51,465 nt of DNA, from assembly GCA_018664075.1 (NCBI GenBank), contig JABJOY010000097.1:1-51465 (forward strand). The letters are read 5' to 3'. Both the position numbers and the translations under genes were made by a program. This document shows positions 22,553 through 28,747 of the stretch, piece by piece (positions within the stretch are counted from its first letter, which is position 1; every line of letters begins with the position of its first letter). This stretch comes from Porticoccaceae bacterium. GTDB lineage: Bacteria > Pseudomonadota > Gammaproteobacteria > Pseudomonadales > Porticoccaceae. The notes below the pieces were generated by a model. The model was not told the DNA's origin, searched no databases, and saw only the letters and a list, made by a program, of their open reading frames with translations.

Positions 22553-23923
22553 TTAAGACAGTGCGTCGAGCGCCTCAGTAACCCTGCGCACCGGTATCAC
22601 AGTCATACCTTTGATTGGCTGCTTTGGCGCATTGCCCGCAGGTACAATCGCGCGGGTAAACCCATGTTTGGCCGCCTCTCTCAGACGCTCCTGACCATTG
22701 GCCACCGGACGAATCTCACCGGCCAATCCCACCTCGCCAAATACCACCAGATTCTGGGGCAGAGACTTATCACGGAAGCTGGAGATCACCGCCAAGATCA
22801 GTGCCAGATCTGCACTGGTCTCCAATACTTTGACCCCACCCACCACATTTACAAACACATCCTGATCGCCCACAGCAATACCGCCATGACGATGCAACAC
22901 CGCCAGTAACATCGAAAGACGGTTGTGATCCAGACCCACAGTAACCCGCCGGGGGTTGCCCAGATGGCTATCATCCACCAGTGCCTGCAACTCAACCAGC
23001 AGAGGCCGGGTGCCCTCCCACACCACCATTACCACAGAACCAGAGGAAACCTCTTCGCCGCGCTGGAGAAAAATTGCCGAGGGGTTGGCCACTTCTTTGA
23101 GGCCTTTATCGGTCATGGCAAAAACCCCAAGCTCATTAACCGCTCCAAAGCGGTTTTTATTGCTGCGCAAGGTGCGAAAATGGGAATCGCTGGAACCCTC
23201 GAGCATCAGCGAGCAGTCGATCATATGCTCCAGTACTTTGGGTCCTGCCAGAGAACCATCTTTGGTTACATGGCCCACCAGAATCAATACAGTGCCAGTC
23301 TGCTTGGCAAACTGCACCAGCATGGAGGCGCTCTCGCGCACCTGGGATACACTGCCGGGAGCCGAGGCCACATCTTCCATATGCATCACTTGAATGGAGT
23401 CCACCACCAGAATTTTAGGCCGCTTCTGCTCGGCAATTGCGCAGACAGTCTCTACCGATGTCTCCGCCATAATTTCCAATTTATCCGCGGGCAGATCCAG
23501 GCGCTTGGCGCGCATGGCCACTTGCTGGGGAGACTCCTCGCCAGTGACATACAAAGCAGTATTGTTTTCCGCCAGTTTGCACAATGTCTGCAACAGCAAG
23601 GTGCTCTTGCCGGCCCCGGGTTCACCACCCACCAAAATAGCGGAACCTGGCACTAGGCCTCCACCGAGCACCAGATCTAGCTCGCCGGTTCCTGTGCTGA
23701 TGCGGGGGATTTCATCCAGCGCTATATCCGCGAGGGTTTTTACCGCGCCATCCACAGCCCCAGCAAAACCGGGCCGTAGCACTTTGCCACCGCGGGCTGC
23801 CGGGCCCAGACGCACTTCAGACAGAGTATTCCATGCGCTGCATTCGCCGCACTGACCCTGCCATTTACGGTAGTCAGCGCCGCAGTCATTGCACACATAG
23901 GCGGATTTGGATTTTGTGGCCAA
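22553..23923 (-). CDS. radA: DNA repair protein RadA/Sms
   Basis: 456 residues, full length. The N-terminal zinc finger C11/C14/C25/C28 (YVCNDCGADYRKWQGQCGEC), Walker A GGEPGAGKST at 99-108, the RadA-specific KNRFG at 256-260 and a C-terminal Lon-protease-like domain with FGEVGLAGEIRPV are all present. RadA is a DnaB-like branch-migration motor acting in recombinational repair. The start codon is TTG at 23921-23923, with a strong AAGGAG ribosome binding site. A consensus LexA box lies 36 bases upstream of the start codon, suggesting SOS control; this is not the textbook regulation of E. coli radA. Confidence 0.95.
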   Translation of the reverse strand: MATKSKSAYVCNDCGADYRKWQGQCGECSAWNTLSEVRLGPAARGGKVLRPGFAGAVDGAVKTLADIALDEIPRISTGTGELDLVLGGGLVPGSAILVGGEPGAGKSTLLLQTLCKLAENNTALYVTGEESPQQVAMRAKRLDLPADKLEIMAETSVETVCAIAEQKRPKILVVDSIQVMHMEDVASAPGSVSQVRESASMLVQFAKQTGTVLILVGHVTKDGSLAGPKVLEHMIDCSLMLEGSSDSHFRTLRSNKNRFGAVNELGVFAMTDKGLKEVANPSAIFLQRGEEVSSGSVVMVVWEGTRPLLVELQALVDDSHLGNPRRVTVGLDHNRLSMLLAVLHRHGGIAVGDQDVFVNVVGGVKVLETSADLALILAVISSFRDKSLPQNLVVFGEVGLAGEIRPVANGQERLREAAKHGFTRAIVPAGNAPKQPIKGMTVIPVRRVTEALDALS

Positions 23924-23959
23924 AGTACTCTCCTTTTATCTACAGTTATTTAATCCCAT

Positions 23960-23979
23960 TACTGTTGTTATGTACAGTA
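23960..23979. promoter_or_regulatory. SOS box (LexA operator) between radA and the GNAT operon
   Basis: The sequence reads TACTGT-TGTTATGT-ACAGTA, a perfect match to the TACTGT-N8-ACAGTA core of the gammaproteobacterial LexA operator. The perfect inverted arms extend to eight bases (ATTACTGT / ACAGTAAT, 23958-23981). It lies in the 119-base gap between divergent radA and the GNAT gene and overlaps the rightward promoter. Confidence 0.75.
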
Positions 23980-23993
23980 ATAAAAATTATAAC
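23965..23993 (+). promoter_or_regulatory. Probable promoter of the GNAT-dehalogenase-DnaT-P run
   Basis: TTGTTA at 23965-23970 (four of six) and TATAAC at 23988-23993 (five of six) are separated by 17 bases and face right, giving a start near 24000 and a leader of about 43 bases. The -35 and part of the spacer are inside the LexA box, so bound LexA would block polymerase. Confidence 0.55.
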
Positions 23994-24042: not shown

Positions 24043-24543
24043 ATGTCATTAATTATCCGTCAGGCCACAGTAGAAGACTGCCCGCTTATTCTAAAATTTA
24101 TCAGAGAGCTGGCAAATTATGAAAAACTCCTTCACGAGGTGGTGGCCGATATCGGCACGCTGGAAGAATCACTATTTGGGTATAAACCCTACGCTGAGGT
24201 AGTGATTGCCCAGTATCAGGGTCAGCCAGTTGGGTTTGCCCTGTTCTTCCATAATTACTCCACCTTTCTGGGGCGGCCAGGTCTGTATCTTGAGGATCTC
24301 TATATTCAGCCAGAGATGCGCGGTAAAGGCTTTGGCAAAACCTTGTTGGCCTATCTGGCCAACCTGGCTCTGGAGCGCAACTGTGGCAGACTGGAATGGT
24401 GGGTACTAGACTGGAATCAGCCAGCTAAAGATTTTTACCAGTCTCTGGGGGCCGAACCCATGGATGACTGGACCGTTAACCGGGTAACCGGTGAAGCACT
24501 TGGCAAACTTGCCAGCCATTATTCAGCAAAGGATCAACCATGA
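24043..24543 (+). CDS. GNAT N-acetyltransferase, SSAT/thialysine-like
   Basis: 166 residues. Typical GNAT order: IIRQATVEDCPLILKFIRELANYEK, then LYLEDLYIQPEMRGKGFGKTLLAYLA with the acetyl-CoA loop R-G-K-G-F-G, then LEWWVLDWNQPAKDFYQSLGA. The EDLYI, W-x-V-L-D-W-N and FY-x-S-L-G-A motifs match the diamine N-acetyltransferase (SSAT2) branch, whose members acetylate thialysine, polyamines or other small amines. First gene of a rightward run; its stop overlaps the start of the dehalogenase gene by four bases. The ribosome binding site is weak. Confidence 0.85.
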   Translation: MSLIIRQATVEDCPLILKFIRELANYEKLLHEVVADIGTLEESLFGYKPYAEVVIAQYQGQPVGFALFFHNYSTFLGRPGLYLEDLYIQPEMRGKGFGKTLLAYLANLALERNCGRLEWWVLDWNQPAKDFYQSLGAEPMDDWTVNRVTGEALGKLASHYSAKDQP

Positions 24544-25220
24544 GCAGCAATGACCTAAATAGCAAACGGATTCTAGTCACCCAGGCAGATACTTTTATGG
24601 GACCCACGCTCTGTGAAGTCTTTACCGAAATGGGCGCTGAGGTCATCGGCGACAATCAGCTGCTGACTGATCCAGCACTGCCCGCCAGGATTATTGAAGC
24701 TGCAGGCACTATTGATGTTCTGGTGATTAATCTGGCCGTTCCCGCCCCGTTTACCAAGCTGGAAAAAGTTGAGGACAACGAGTGGCAGTCAGTGTTTAGT
24801 GCAGTGGTTGACCCAATGCCCAGGCTGGTCAGCGCAGTACTGCCTCAGATGATTGAACGCCAGTCCGGCAAAATTCTGGTGATGGGCAGCGCCTCTGCCC
24901 TGCGCGGCATGAAGCGAGCATCCACCTATAGCGCAGCCCGCGGCGCGCAGCTGGCCTATGTGCAGGCCGCCGGTGTAGAGATGGCTCCCCATGGTATTCA
25001 GATCAATGCCATAGCCCAGAACTTTGTCGACAACCCTACATACTTCCCGGAAGAGACCAAAGCCAATCCAGCATTCCAGGACAGGCTCAAACGGGAGGTG
25101 CCACTGGGACGGCTGGTATCAATGCGTGAAGATGCCCAGTTTGCGGCCTATCTCTGCTCTGATGCGGCAGATTGCTTTGTCGGACAGGTGTTTCCTGTGA
25201 GTGGGGGCTGGGCTGTTTAA
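24540..25220 (+). CDS. Halohydrin dehalogenase (SDR-related)
   Basis: 226 residues, as in HheA-HheG enzymes. Though related to short-chain dehydrogenases, it lacks the G-x-x-x-G-x-G dinucleotide loop and has instead T14-x4-F19-x-G21 (TQADTFMG), the halide-pocket motif. The catalytic triad is S117, Y130 and R134 in the exact spacing S-x12-Y-x3-R, with arginine replacing the usual lysine. The C-terminal part (NPTYFPEE ... VPLGRLVSMREDAQFAAYL ... CFVGQVFPVSGGW) aligns by eye with HheC. Such enzymes turn vicinal halohydrins into epoxides and open epoxides with small anions. Overlaps the GNAT gene by four bases and is followed 43 bases later by the DnaT-like gene. Confidence 0.85.
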   Translation: MSSNDLNSKRILVTQADTFMGPTLCEVFTEMGAEVIGDNQLLTDPALPARIIEAAGTIDVLVINLAVPAPFTKLEKVEDNEWQSVFSAVVDPMPRLVSAVLPQMIERQSGKILVMGSASALRGMKRASTYSAARGAQLAYVQAAGVEMAPHGIQINAIAQNFVDNPTYFPEETKANPAFQDRLKREVPLGRLVSMREDAQFAAYLCSDAADCFVGQVFPVSGGWAV

Positions 25221-25263
25221 GGTTTATCTCGTCCATCAGTTGGCTTTCTGATACAGTATTCGG

Positions 25264-26391
25264 ATGTCGCTAATTCCCGAAAACCCTATTGCTATCTCGC
25301 CCACTCTGGCCGCTACTATCGGTCTGGAGGAGACGGTATTGCTGCAATTGCTGCAGGAGTGCCTGGCCCATGGCGATGCTGTGCAGAGCAGTGGTTTTAG
25401 CTGGGTGACCGTCTCTGGCCAGCGGCTTCTGGGGCTCGCACCATTTTGGCGTGAAGATGATATTCGTCGCCTGACTGCTAGCCTTCATGAGAAGGGGTTG
25501 CTGTTAATTGGCGGCGCGCCTTTTTCCGCCCAAGAGGATTTCCGCTTTGCCTTTAACGAAGGAGCCAGCTCAGCTCAGGTGCCATCCCAGACCGCGCATC
25601 AGCCCAGCCCACAGATTAATCAGTTCAGCAGCCCCCATTCCGCCAAAACCATTTGTGGCAGCTGGCAGCCCAGCGAGGACGCACTGCGTCAGCTGGCTCA
25701 GCTGGGTGTGACCCGGGAGTTTGCCCAGCAGCAGATTCCGCAGTTTGTTGCCTACTGGCGTGAGCGCAATGTGCCGCGGCACAGTTGGGAATCAAAATAT
25801 ATCAAAGAAGTGTGGCGCCAATGGCAGCAGGCGGAGAGCACCAATCATCGCCGCCGCCGTGAAGTCTCGGTAACCGGCGAATGGCGACCCTCGGCGGATG
25901 CCATGGATATTCTGGTTAAGCAGGGCGGCATCAACCCTAACTTTATTGAAGATGCGGTGCCGGAGTTTATTCTCTACTGGCGCGATCGCGGTGATGTGTC
26001 TAGCACGTGGGATTCAAAGTTTATTCAACATGTGCGCCGTCAGTGGCAGTTTTATACTGGTATGATGGACCAGGACTCAATGCCTCGTTCTATCCCTGCC
26101 CAGTGGCAGCCCAAAGAATCTGTCTATGATGTTTTGCAAATGGCCAATATTGATCGCCAGTTTGCCCAGCAGATTATTCCCGAATTTGTGCTCTACTGGC
26201 AGGAGAATGGAACCCCTCAGGTTTCATGGAGCACCAAGTTTTTGCAGTATGTAAAGCGTCAGTGGGCGCGGCACAATCAACCTCAGTCAGCGAGCAGTAA
26301 TCATGGCAAACAGCACGGATCTCATCCAGAAGGTCGCCTCAGAGATCGCAGCATCATCGACGCACTCTCCGACCGCAGCTGGGCAAGCTAA
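25264..26391 (+). CDS. Protein with three DnaT-like DNA-binding domains
   Basis: 375 residues. Residues 10-90 look like a winged-helix domain (LEETVLLQLLQECLAHG ... LGLAPFWREDDIRRLTASLHEKGLL), as in the DnaT/DnaD N-terminus. Three copies of the DnaT C-terminal domain follow at about 132-190, 205-265 and 279-338. Each has the pattern W-x-P-S/K-x-x-x-x-x-L ... F-x-x-x-x-x-P-x-F-x-x-Y-W ... S/T-W-x-S/T-K-F/Y-I/L-x-x-V-x-R-Q-W. E. coli DnaT has one such domain and binds single-stranded DNA in replication restart. Three in tandem would widen the footprint or allow self-assembly (inference). The last 89 bases overlap the next gene in another frame. The ribosome binding site is poor. Confidence 0.75.
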   Translation: MSLIPENPIAISPTLAATIGLEETVLLQLLQECLAHGDAVQSSGFSWVTVSGQRLLGLAPFWREDDIRRLTASLHEKGLLLIGGAPFSAQEDFRFAFNEGASSAQVPSQTAHQPSPQINQFSSPHSAKTICGSWQPSEDALRQLAQLGVTREFAQQQIPQFVAYWRERNVPRHSWESKYIKEVWRQWQQAESTNHRRRREVSVTGEWRPSADAMDILVKQGGINPNFIEDAVPEFILYWRDRGDVSSTWDSKFIQHVRRQWQFYTGMMDQDSMPRSIPAQWQPKESVYDVLQMANIDRQFAQQIIPEFVLYWQENGTPQVSWSTKFLQYVKRQWARHNQPQSASSNHGKQHGSHPEGRLRDRSIIDALSDRSWAS

Positions 26392-26968
26392 ACCAGTTCC
26401 AGCCAGCCCTGAACTGATTGATGCGATCAATCAGATTTTTGCGCTGTTTCAGGTTAACTATCACAATCAGTACTACGCCGCCTTTGGCGATAATACCAAA
26501 TCGGAAAATCTGGCGAAAAAACTGTGGCTGTCAAAGCTGGAGCATTTTGCCCCTGCAATTATTTTGTCCGCTGCTGAGAAGATTATCGCCGACAGTGAGT
26601 ACCTACCAACATTGCACAAAATGTTGAATGCCTGCCGCTCTGCGGGCATGCCTGCGGGTCTGCCCAATCCACGCAAGGCCTATCAAGAGGCCTGCAATAA
26701 ACCTAGCCCCAAGGCTGAGCAGCAATGGTCCCATGCCATAGTCTACCTGGCTGGCCGCGACTGCGGCTGGCATCTACTGGCCAATGAAATTGAATCCAGA
26801 GCACTGCCCGCCTTTACCGAGATCTATCAGCAGTACTGTGATCTTGTCGTGATAGGGCAAGAGTTCAGCATTGAACCGCCTCAGGCGCTGCCTGAAACTC
26901 CTCAGGTGGCCGCCAGCCAAGCGCATAATCTTGAGCAGCTGGACCGGCTCAAGCAGCTACTAGACTAA
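26303..26968 (+). CDS. Replication protein P-like helicase loader
   Basis: 221 residues. ASPELIDAINQIFALFQVNYHNQYYAAFGD, KLWLSKLEHF, AAEKIIADSEYLPTLHKML and the G-L-P-x-P-R-K-A-Y-x-E-A-C segment are typical of the lambda P / chromosomal replication protein P family, which delivers the DnaB helicase to a DNA-bound partner. Directly after, and overlapping by 89 bases, a DnaT-like gene, it would complete a primosome-type pair. No other phage genes are nearby, so it appears to be a domesticated or native chromosomal gene. The ATG at 26303 has only a weak ribosome binding site; coupling to the overlapping frame may help. Confidence 0.7.
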   Translation: MANSTDLIQKVASEIAASSTHSPTAAGQAKPVPASPELIDAINQIFALFQVNYHNQYYAAFGDNTKSENLAKKLWLSKLEHFAPAIILSAAEKIIADSEYLPTLHKMLNACRSAGMPAGLPNPRKAYQEACNKPSPKAEQQWSHAIVYLAGRDCGWHLLANEIESRALPAFTEIYQQYCDLVVIGQEFSIEPPQALPETPQVAASQAHNLEQLDRLKQLLD

Positions 26969-26977
26969 CCGCTGACT

Positions 26978-28747
26978 ATGGCTGGACAACTATTAACCCA
27001 TAATTCCACTGCCCGGCGTATGGCGAAGACCATATTGAATGGCTTTCGCAGCTATTTTGCCGACTATCTAAACTCTACACTTAGTGCCAAGGCGCGCTTT
27101 GAAAAAGCTGATTGGCATGGGGTGCAGCAGGCGAATGTGGATCGGCTTGAACTATATAAAGACAAGGTAGCTCAGACGGTTCAGTATCTGGAAATGGTGA
27201 CAAATAAAGATATTGCCAACCTTGAACTGTGGAGCGAAGCCAAGCGAGCCTACACCCAGCTGGTGTTTAATTTTCCCAATTTTGAAATTGCCGAGACATT
27301 TTTTAACTCGGTGTTTAGCGATATTCACGACCATGACAAGATCAATGACGATATTATCTATGTGCTGTCATCACAGCTGATTGAGGCCCCGGAAGCGGAG
27401 TACAGTATTTTTGTGCGCTACGAGGGTGAGGGCTTTCGCGACACCTTCAGGCGCATTTTGAAAGAGTCGGAATTCAGCCTGCCCGGTGAGGATATTGAGC
27501 TGGATCTCGACTGCATTATGGCGGTGTTTAATCAAGAGATAGTGCCCCAACTTAAAGGCTCTGCTGAACAGATTAAATTCGATATTCTGGAATCCACTTT
27601 TTATCGCAGCAAGGCTGCCTATATGGTGGGTCGTGTTGTGGATGGGGATCAGACTTTCCCCATGGCTCTGGTATTTCTCAATACCGAGAAAGGCAATCTG
27701 TATGTGGATACGGCGCTATTTAACGACGATGATCTTAGTGTGGTATTCAGCTTTACCCGCAACCATTTTATGGTGGATGCGCCCCTTCCCTACCAATATG
27801 CCCATTTTCTGAAGACATTAATGCCCCGCAAGCTGGACTATGAAGTCTACAATTCACTAGGCTTCCCCAAGCATGCCAAAACTGAATTTTATCGGCAGCT
27901 GGTAGGTCATCTGGAAAATTCTTCCGATCAGTTTATTGTTGCCCCTGGCATTAAAGGCATGGTGATGACTGTATTTACGCTGCCCTCTTACAATATTGTG
28001 TTTAAGATTATTAAAGACAAATTTGCGCCACCCAAGGAAGTGACCCATCAGATTGTGCGCGAGAAATACCGCCTAGTATCTCGCCATGACCGCATTGGCC
28101 GCATGGCGGATACCCAGGAATTTGATAATCTGGTATTTCCTCTGGATCGCTTCTCCGACGAATTGATTGAAGAGTTGCAAAAGGTAGCCCAGTCTTCGAT
28201 TGAAATACGGGGAGATAAGCTGGTGATCAAGCACCTGTATACAGAGCGCTATATGACACCGCTAAATATCTACCTCGAAAGCGCCTCAGATGAACAGATT
28301 CGTAGTGCCATGGAAGAATATGGCAACTGTATCAAGCAGTTGGCTGCGGCCAATATTTTCCCCGGGGATATGCCACTGAAGAACTTTGGTGTTACCCGTC
28401 ATGGCCGCGTGGTGTTTTATGATTATGATGAGATCGCTACTTTGACGGACTGCAATTTCCGCAAGATTCCTCAGCCCCGCAATGAGCAGGAAGAGATGCA
28501 ATCCGGCACCTGGTACACGGTGGCACCTGATGATATTTTCCCGGAGGAATTTCCCCTGTTCTTCTCTGGTAATATAAAAGCCAGAAAAATGTTTGAAGAG
28601 ATACATGCTGAACTCTACGACGTGAGTTTCTGGACTGGCCTGCAGGAACAGATTCGCAATGGCTATGTAGTGGATGTATTCCCTTACCGAAGAGCCAAGC
28701 GTTTTGATCGGGGCAAAGATTCCGTGCTTGAAGTTTTTTCTGACTAG
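26978..28747 (+). CDS. aceK: Isocitrate dehydrogenase kinase/phosphatase
   Basis: 589 residues, full length for AceK. GSAEQIKFDILESTFYRSKAAYMVGR, APGIKGMVMTVFTLPSYNIVFKIIKDKFAPPKEV (ATP-binding region), GDMPLKNFGVTRHGRVVFYDYDEIATLTDCNFRKIP and the closing DVFPYRRAKRF are highly typical. AceK phosphorylates isocitrate dehydrogenase to divert carbon into the glyoxylate shunt and also reverses this. That role suits an organism growing on fatty acids and acetyl-CoA, as the left part of the window suggests. It lies 9 bases after the P-like gene, so may be cotranscribed. In enterobacteria it follows aceBA, which are absent here. Confidence 0.95.
   Translation: MAGQLLTHNSTARRMAKTILNGFRSYFADYLNSTLSAKARFEKADWHGVQQANVDRLELYKDKVAQTVQYLEMVTNKDIANLELWSEAKRAYTQLVFNFPNFEIAETFFNSVFSDIHDHDKINDDIIYVLSSQLIEAPEAEYSIFVRYEGEGFRDTFRRILKESEFSLPGEDIELDLDCIMAVFNQEIVPQLKGSAEQIKFDILESTFYRSKAAYMVGRVVDGDQTFPMALVFLNTEKGNLYVDTALFNDDDLSVVFSFTRNHFMVDAPLPYQYAHFLKTLMPRKLDYEVYNSLGFPKHAKTEFYRQLVGHLENSSDQFIVAPGIKGMVMTVFTLPSYNIVFKIIKDKFAPPKEVTHQIVREKYRLVSRHDRIGRMADTQEFDNLVFPLDRFSDELIEELQKVAQSSIEIRGDKLVIKHLYTERYMTPLNIYLESASDEQIRSAMEEYGNCIKQLAAANIFPGDMPLKNFGVTRHGRVVFYDYDEIATLTDCNFRKIPQPRNEQEEMQSGTWYTVAPDDIFPEEFPLFFSGNIKARKMFEEIHAELYDVSFWTGLQEQIRNGYVVDVFPYRRAKRFDRGKDSVLEVFSD

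Follow-up and report, generated by a model that had tools for sequence, protein, structure and literature searches.

To our knowledge, radA of Escherichia coli is not a LexA target. In that organism RadA, RecG and RuvAB form three branch-migration systems that are partly specialised and partly redundant (PMC4786428), and LexA does not occur in that paper. Lineage-specific additions to the SOS response have been described from Vibrio, where recG, topB and mutH were placed under LexA control by comparative genomics and supported by gel shift (PMC3323433). The same study names ruvAB, recN and uvrA as SOS genes and reports one LexA site common to the divergent uvrA-ssb pair; radA has no occurrence there. 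In Mycobacterium tuberculosis, exposure to a DNA-damaging drug raises the level of radA mRNA (12-fold for moxifloxacin), and the gene is classed among other DNA repair genes, in a group separate from the SOS genes (PMC7911356). In the titles and abstract openings from the literature searched, mostly without subscription journals, radA was not found as a LexA target, and the available parts of PMC1839093, PMC3323433, PMC3374874, PMC4786428, PMC7911356, PMC5101192, PMC10804225 and PMC3135505 hold no statement that LexA controls radA.

We analysed a stretch of 51,465 nucleotides from a Porticoccaceae bacterium (contig JABJOY010000097.1), hereafter the window, in which the 119-base intergenic region between radA and a divergent GNAT acetyltransferase gene contains a perfect SOS box. 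Positions 23958–23981 read AT-TACTGT-TGTTATGT-ACAGTA-AT, and direct reading confirms the perfectly symmetric 8-base arms that an earlier sequence-only reading had described. The predicted LexA operator itself, TACTGT-N8-ACAGTA, occupies 23960–23979 (minus strand). It had been placed 36 bases upstream of radA, which is correct when counted from the 20-base operator to the TTG start codon (23923, minus strand). The proposed target, radA (sms; 22553–23923, minus strand), encodes 456 amino acids, matches TIGR00416 at 678.9 bits (cut-off 403) and is preceded by a Shine-Dalgarno-like AGGAGAG at 23928–23934 (minus strand). The closest named radA loci are from Porticoccaceae of the SAR92 type, with a best identity of 96%; MOLA455 (90%) and LSUCC0057 (80%) rank lower.

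The operator is of a known kind. It shares with gammaproteobacterial LexA operators the CTGT-N8-ACAG motif, an overlaid promoter-like pair and, in the window's genome, the company of lexA, recA, imuA-imuB and dnaE2, but it differs from the gammaproteobacterial SOS regulon in its target, and we consider it best read from the sequence as a conventional SOS operator whose target, radA, is unusual. The nearest precedents are Vibrio recG under LexA and the damage-inducible radA of M. tuberculosis. The Vibrio genes recG, topB and mutH (PMC3323433) likewise represent lineage-specific SOS recruitment of another recombination gene, although genes and lineage differ and gel shift was shown there, whereas the SAR92 case is predicted from sequence. 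The M. tuberculosis gene, as far as the available account goes, resembles the radA induction proposed here, in a distant phylum. The LexA motif of M. tuberculosis is also a different one. As in the uvrA-ssb pair, one operator lies between divergent genes; unlike in that pair, the gene facing radA differs from genome to genome, and dnaT, the older neighbour, has a promoter-like element of its own.

The source genome (2.06 Mb in 104 contigs) encodes LexA (TIGR00498, 244 bits, cut-off 111) and contains three perfect sites, against none for a reversed-pattern control. The radA box is thereby tied as the best site in the genome, the other two perfect sites preceding imuA and dnaE2. A single mismatch is found in five further sites: those upstream of recA and of lexA, one close to a nitroreductase gene, and two within coding sequence (alaS and the NAD kinase gene). 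Within the window, sites with up to two mismatches numbered one, compared with 0.87 expected from shuffles, and the one observed has no mismatch. The LexA operator that the sequence-only reading proposed at radA is supported, because the genome's own lexA, recA, imuA and dnaE2 sites share its CTGT-N8-ACAG motif and because close relatives have kept the box. We conclude that the box is probably a LexA operator that represses radA, with binding, repression and induction inferred from these sequence comparisons.

To describe this conservation, we took 75 of the 80 genomes in an even draw of the family, which gave 76 radA upstreams, and scored the best site in 400 bases of each. A box was counted as present when it had no more than three mismatches, kept CTG-N10-CAG and lay within 100 bases of radA. 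Four of the 80 genomes had no radA match and were left out, as was a radA fragment without its N-terminus (G040), and one genome (G065) contributed two copies of radA. Two core matches, at −389 (L141) and −386 (L044), were disregarded as lying past the start of dnaT or too distant from radA. By this measure the box is present in 29 of the 76 upstreams and is confined to the window's genus (g1, 18/18) and genera g6 (2/2) and g10 (9/12), with none among the 44 upstreams of the remaining genera. For comparison, a CTG-N10-CAG site with up to three mismatches was found in 384 of 5840 random 400-base stretches of the loci collected, real boxes included. Boxes with two or three mismatches account for eight of the nine in g10, both in g6 and four in g1; in 16 of the 18 g1 genomes the 5′ end of the box is 56–63 bases from the start of the radA match. 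The three genera form one clade, in which 29 of 32 radA upstreams keep the box. The sequence-only reading had named a lack of conservation in relatives as evidence against itself, and the close relatives instead retain the site. Three of the 12 g10 genomes (L164, L166 and L169) are without a radA box while the other nine have it, possibly through secondary loss or as a separate lineage.

Among 80 named radA loci, 25 carry the box; some genomes occur in both this set and the unnamed one, so that the two are not independent. In a rapidly built RadA protein tree (81 rows, SH-aLRT support, no bootstrap), the 25 named carriers and the window all fall in one 27-row clade with an SH-aLRT support of 96, and the sole box-free row inside it is the long-branched L054. 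The box label needs two changes on this tree, compared with a mean of 22 when shuffled, which fits one gain and one loss. Box loss through a changed LexA motif was considered and is not supported: all 44 lexA upstreams that were scored, also those from genera lacking the radA box, retain CTG-N10-CAG with up to four mismatches. A lexA match was obtained in 75 family genomes, and the lexA set comprised 50 of their upstreams. Six of the 50 were unscored as the fragment gave no lexA match; the best site in five of these six has one or two mismatches, and that in L233 (genus g3) comes only to four.

Across the class, we searched 369 gammaproteobacterial genomes with two gap patterns, each combining a box with the zinc-finger codons of radA downstream of it. 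A gap of 36–66 with the loose CTG-N10-CAG gave five places in four genomes, none with CTGT-N8-ACAG and with about three expected by chance on our own estimate; a gap of 67–97 with CTGT-N9-CAG gave one genome, the window's own. The two patterns recover 28 of the 29 known carriers, and their zinc-finger part fits all 80 named and all 76 family radA genes, the loci on which alone they were calibrated. Independent recruitment of radA elsewhere in the Gammaproteobacteria was set aside, as these two patterns found no CTGT-N8-ACAG site in the 369 genomes except the window's. Because the box is kept in most close relatives and not in distant ones, it is probable that radA joined the SOS response within the SAR92-type lineage.

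The operator overlies promoter-like hexamers of radA. An alignment of 16 g1 intergenic regions (L109 and L112 were excluded for odd spacing) has its best-conserved part in the box and the adjoining block toward radA: the block ACTGTACATAA is invariant, as is the CAG after it, followed by AAT-N2-G-N-TTAAAT. These positions give a consensus match, TGTACA-N17-TTAAAT, directed at radA with its −35 inside the box. In the window, the putative −35 hexamer TGTACA is at 23971–23976 (minus strand) and is invariant in all 16 aligned upstreams, and 17 bases from it lies the putative −10 hexamer TTAAAT at 23948–23953 (minus strand), which reads TTAAAT in 15 of the 16 and TTTAAT in one. Six g10 genomes have another consensus match, TTGACA-N17-TATAAA, also directed at radA, with the −10 inside the box. 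When promoter-like pairs were scored in both directions across the 29 box carriers, the pair toward radA scored higher in 23, lower in four (the window included) and equal in two; in four g1 genomes (L104–L107) the scoring favoured another radA-ward pair over the conserved one. The window's own radA hexamers have only 8/12 consensus matches, and a stricter search of the window for promoters reported neither these nor the rightward pair described below.

These features suggest the following mechanism. In the undamaged cell, LexA bound at 23960–23979 would cover part of the radA promoter (the putative −35 in the window, the putative −10 in the sister genus g10), block RNA polymerase at radA and keep RadA low. 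Following DNA damage, RecA filaments would lead to LexA self-cleavage, and RadA would then rise alongside RecA, LexA and the products of the imuA, imuB and dnaE2 genes. More RadA may speed branch migration behind RecA during repair. On the simplest account, this control of radA would have arisen once, at the base of a SAR92 subclade, upon an older divergent radA/dnaT arrangement.

That the palindrome is instead the site of another regulator, or a chance match, is highly improbable. We found no specific support for such a reading, this genome has the same motif at lexA, recA, imuA and dnaE2, the place of the box is conserved, and perfect sites summed over the 80 family genomes number 148 against 13 for the reversed-pattern control. 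A second question is what the box may do for its rightward neighbours. The GNAT gene (24043–24543, plus strand; PF00583) is a genus-level insertion between radA and dnaT, found in 14 of 18 g1 genomes and in none of the 62 other genomes of the family draw. It is followed by an SDR gene (24540–25220, plus strand) predicted to be of the halohydrin dehalogenase type. The first two structure matches of its product, 7b73 (E = 1.3e-126) and 8xxb, are named only as SDR, and the third and fourth, 4zd6 (E = 1.6e-54) and 5b12, are halohydrin epoxidase B; its closest characterised relatives are halohydrin dehalogenases, and this activity is predicted. This SDR gene stands beside GNAT in only part of the genus. 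The GNAT and dehalogenase genes are later insertions. The box is retained in g6, in g10 and in those four g1 genomes that lack GNAT, and regulation of GNAT or the dehalogenase was rejected as its main role because it is kept where both genes are absent. A narrower version, in which one operator serves radA and also the rightward GNAT and halohydrin dehalogenase genes in the window's species or sub-group, is possible though doubtful. The box does lie between divergent genes, a shared site of this sort is known for uvrA-ssb (PMC3323433), and the rightward promoter that the sequence-only reading saw overlapping the box does exist as hexamers: the candidate at 23965–23993 (plus strand, toward GNAT) consists of TTGTTA (23965–23970), N17 and TATAAC (23988–23993), has 9/12 consensus matches and scores 9.5 in the window, compared with 9.0 for the radA-ward pair. 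These hexamers, however, are not conserved in the genus, the distance from box to GNAT varies in g1 from about 64 to 150, and the other genera with the box, g6 and g10, lack GNAT.

The sequence-only reading went further and joined radA and a DnaT/P pair under LexA, in a damage-inducible locus whose members rise together. This is unlikely. Downstream of the SDR gene, and outside the proposed SOS unit, are a dnaT-like gene (25264–26391, plus strand; PF17948 in three stretches), a lambda-P-like gene (26303–26968, plus strand; PF06992 at 23.3 bits, below the cut-off of 26) and aceK (26978–28747, plus strand; NF002804, 758.7 bits). The DnaT-like protein has 375 amino acids and three matches to the DnaT DNA-binding domain; E. 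coli DnaT is much shorter. Across the family, dnaT and the lambda-P-like gene, which accompanies it in most loci, are divergent from radA, either directly adjoining or with genes between, and aceK comes next in many. In four g1 genomes, in g6 and g10 and in several genera without the box, the two genes adjoin radA in divergent orientation, an arrangement that would suit joint control, and in the window read-through from the rightward promoter via GNAT and SDR could in principle reach them. Joint regulation is nevertheless not supported, because a conserved promoter-like element belonging to dnaT itself is present whether or not a locus has the box. The window's copy is an extended −10, TGATACAGT, at 25249–25257 (plus strand), six bases before the dnaT ATG; the corresponding CTGnTAnnGT occurs in 69 of the 74 Porticoccaceae loci, for the most part at a distance of six or seven bases from the ATG, and is unchanged between box-bearing and box-free genera. 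Transcription of dnaT from a promoter at the box instead of its own is thus not what these loci indicate, the box being 1.28 kb from dnaT and about 1.27 kb from the promoter-like element. The dnaT mRNA is predicted to be leaderless, since the extended −10 would place the start site at the ATG. That the box travels with dnaT was likewise rejected: of 32 dnaT genes that do not adjoin radA, including that of the window, none has a site with fewer than three mismatches in the scanned stretch.

With the box assigned to radA as a probable LexA operator, we compared the conservation of sites at other SOS genes within g1. The box was found at 15/15 recA loci (recA was found in 15 of 19 genus genomes). 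It is not conserved at ruvA, with one weak site among 17 loci (17 of 19 genus genomes; up to 1300 bases searched, fewer being available upstream at four loci), nor at recG, with one weak site in 17, recN (0/17) or uvrA (0/18). Weak sites of similar quality turn up in the random 400-base stretches as well, at the 384 of 5840 given above. Excluded from these counts as fragments, duplicates or other helicases were L273, L275 and L277 (recG), L293, L296 and L297 (recN), and L312 and L317 (uvrA). The gene recG, LexA-controlled in Vibrio (PMC3323433), has a single weak site in the SAR92 genus, and ruvAB, recN and uvrA, named there as SOS genes, share the theme of damage-inducible processing of damaged or recombining DNA but have no conserved box at ruvA, recN or uvrA in this genus. 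Because the lexA and recA boxes are kept while ruvA, recG, recN and uvrA have no conserved box, radA looks like a member of an apparently small regulon without several E. coli members, as judged from the six genes compared (lexA, recA, ruvA, recG, recN and uvrA).

A broader interpretation, for and against which we see an even balance, is that the SAR92 SOS response has been rewired. RadA, a branch mover within the RecA filament, would be its damage-inducible branch-migration factor, RuvAB, RecG and RecN would have left or never joined LexA control, and the regulon would comprise lexA, recA, imuAB, dnaE2 and radA. If, as it seems, this lineage has RadA under the SOS repressor but neither RuvAB nor RecG, it offers a natural experiment as to which of the three is limiting for repair. 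The SAR92 clade would also gain a first outline of its SOS regulon, as we found no literature combining SAR92 and LexA.

The one-mismatch box near the nitroreductase gene (L007:1501–1520, corresponding to G000:C81:18668–18687) lies about 240 bases upstream of that gene, which is followed by moaC. From its sequence, the nitroreductase gene is a possible further member of the regulon.
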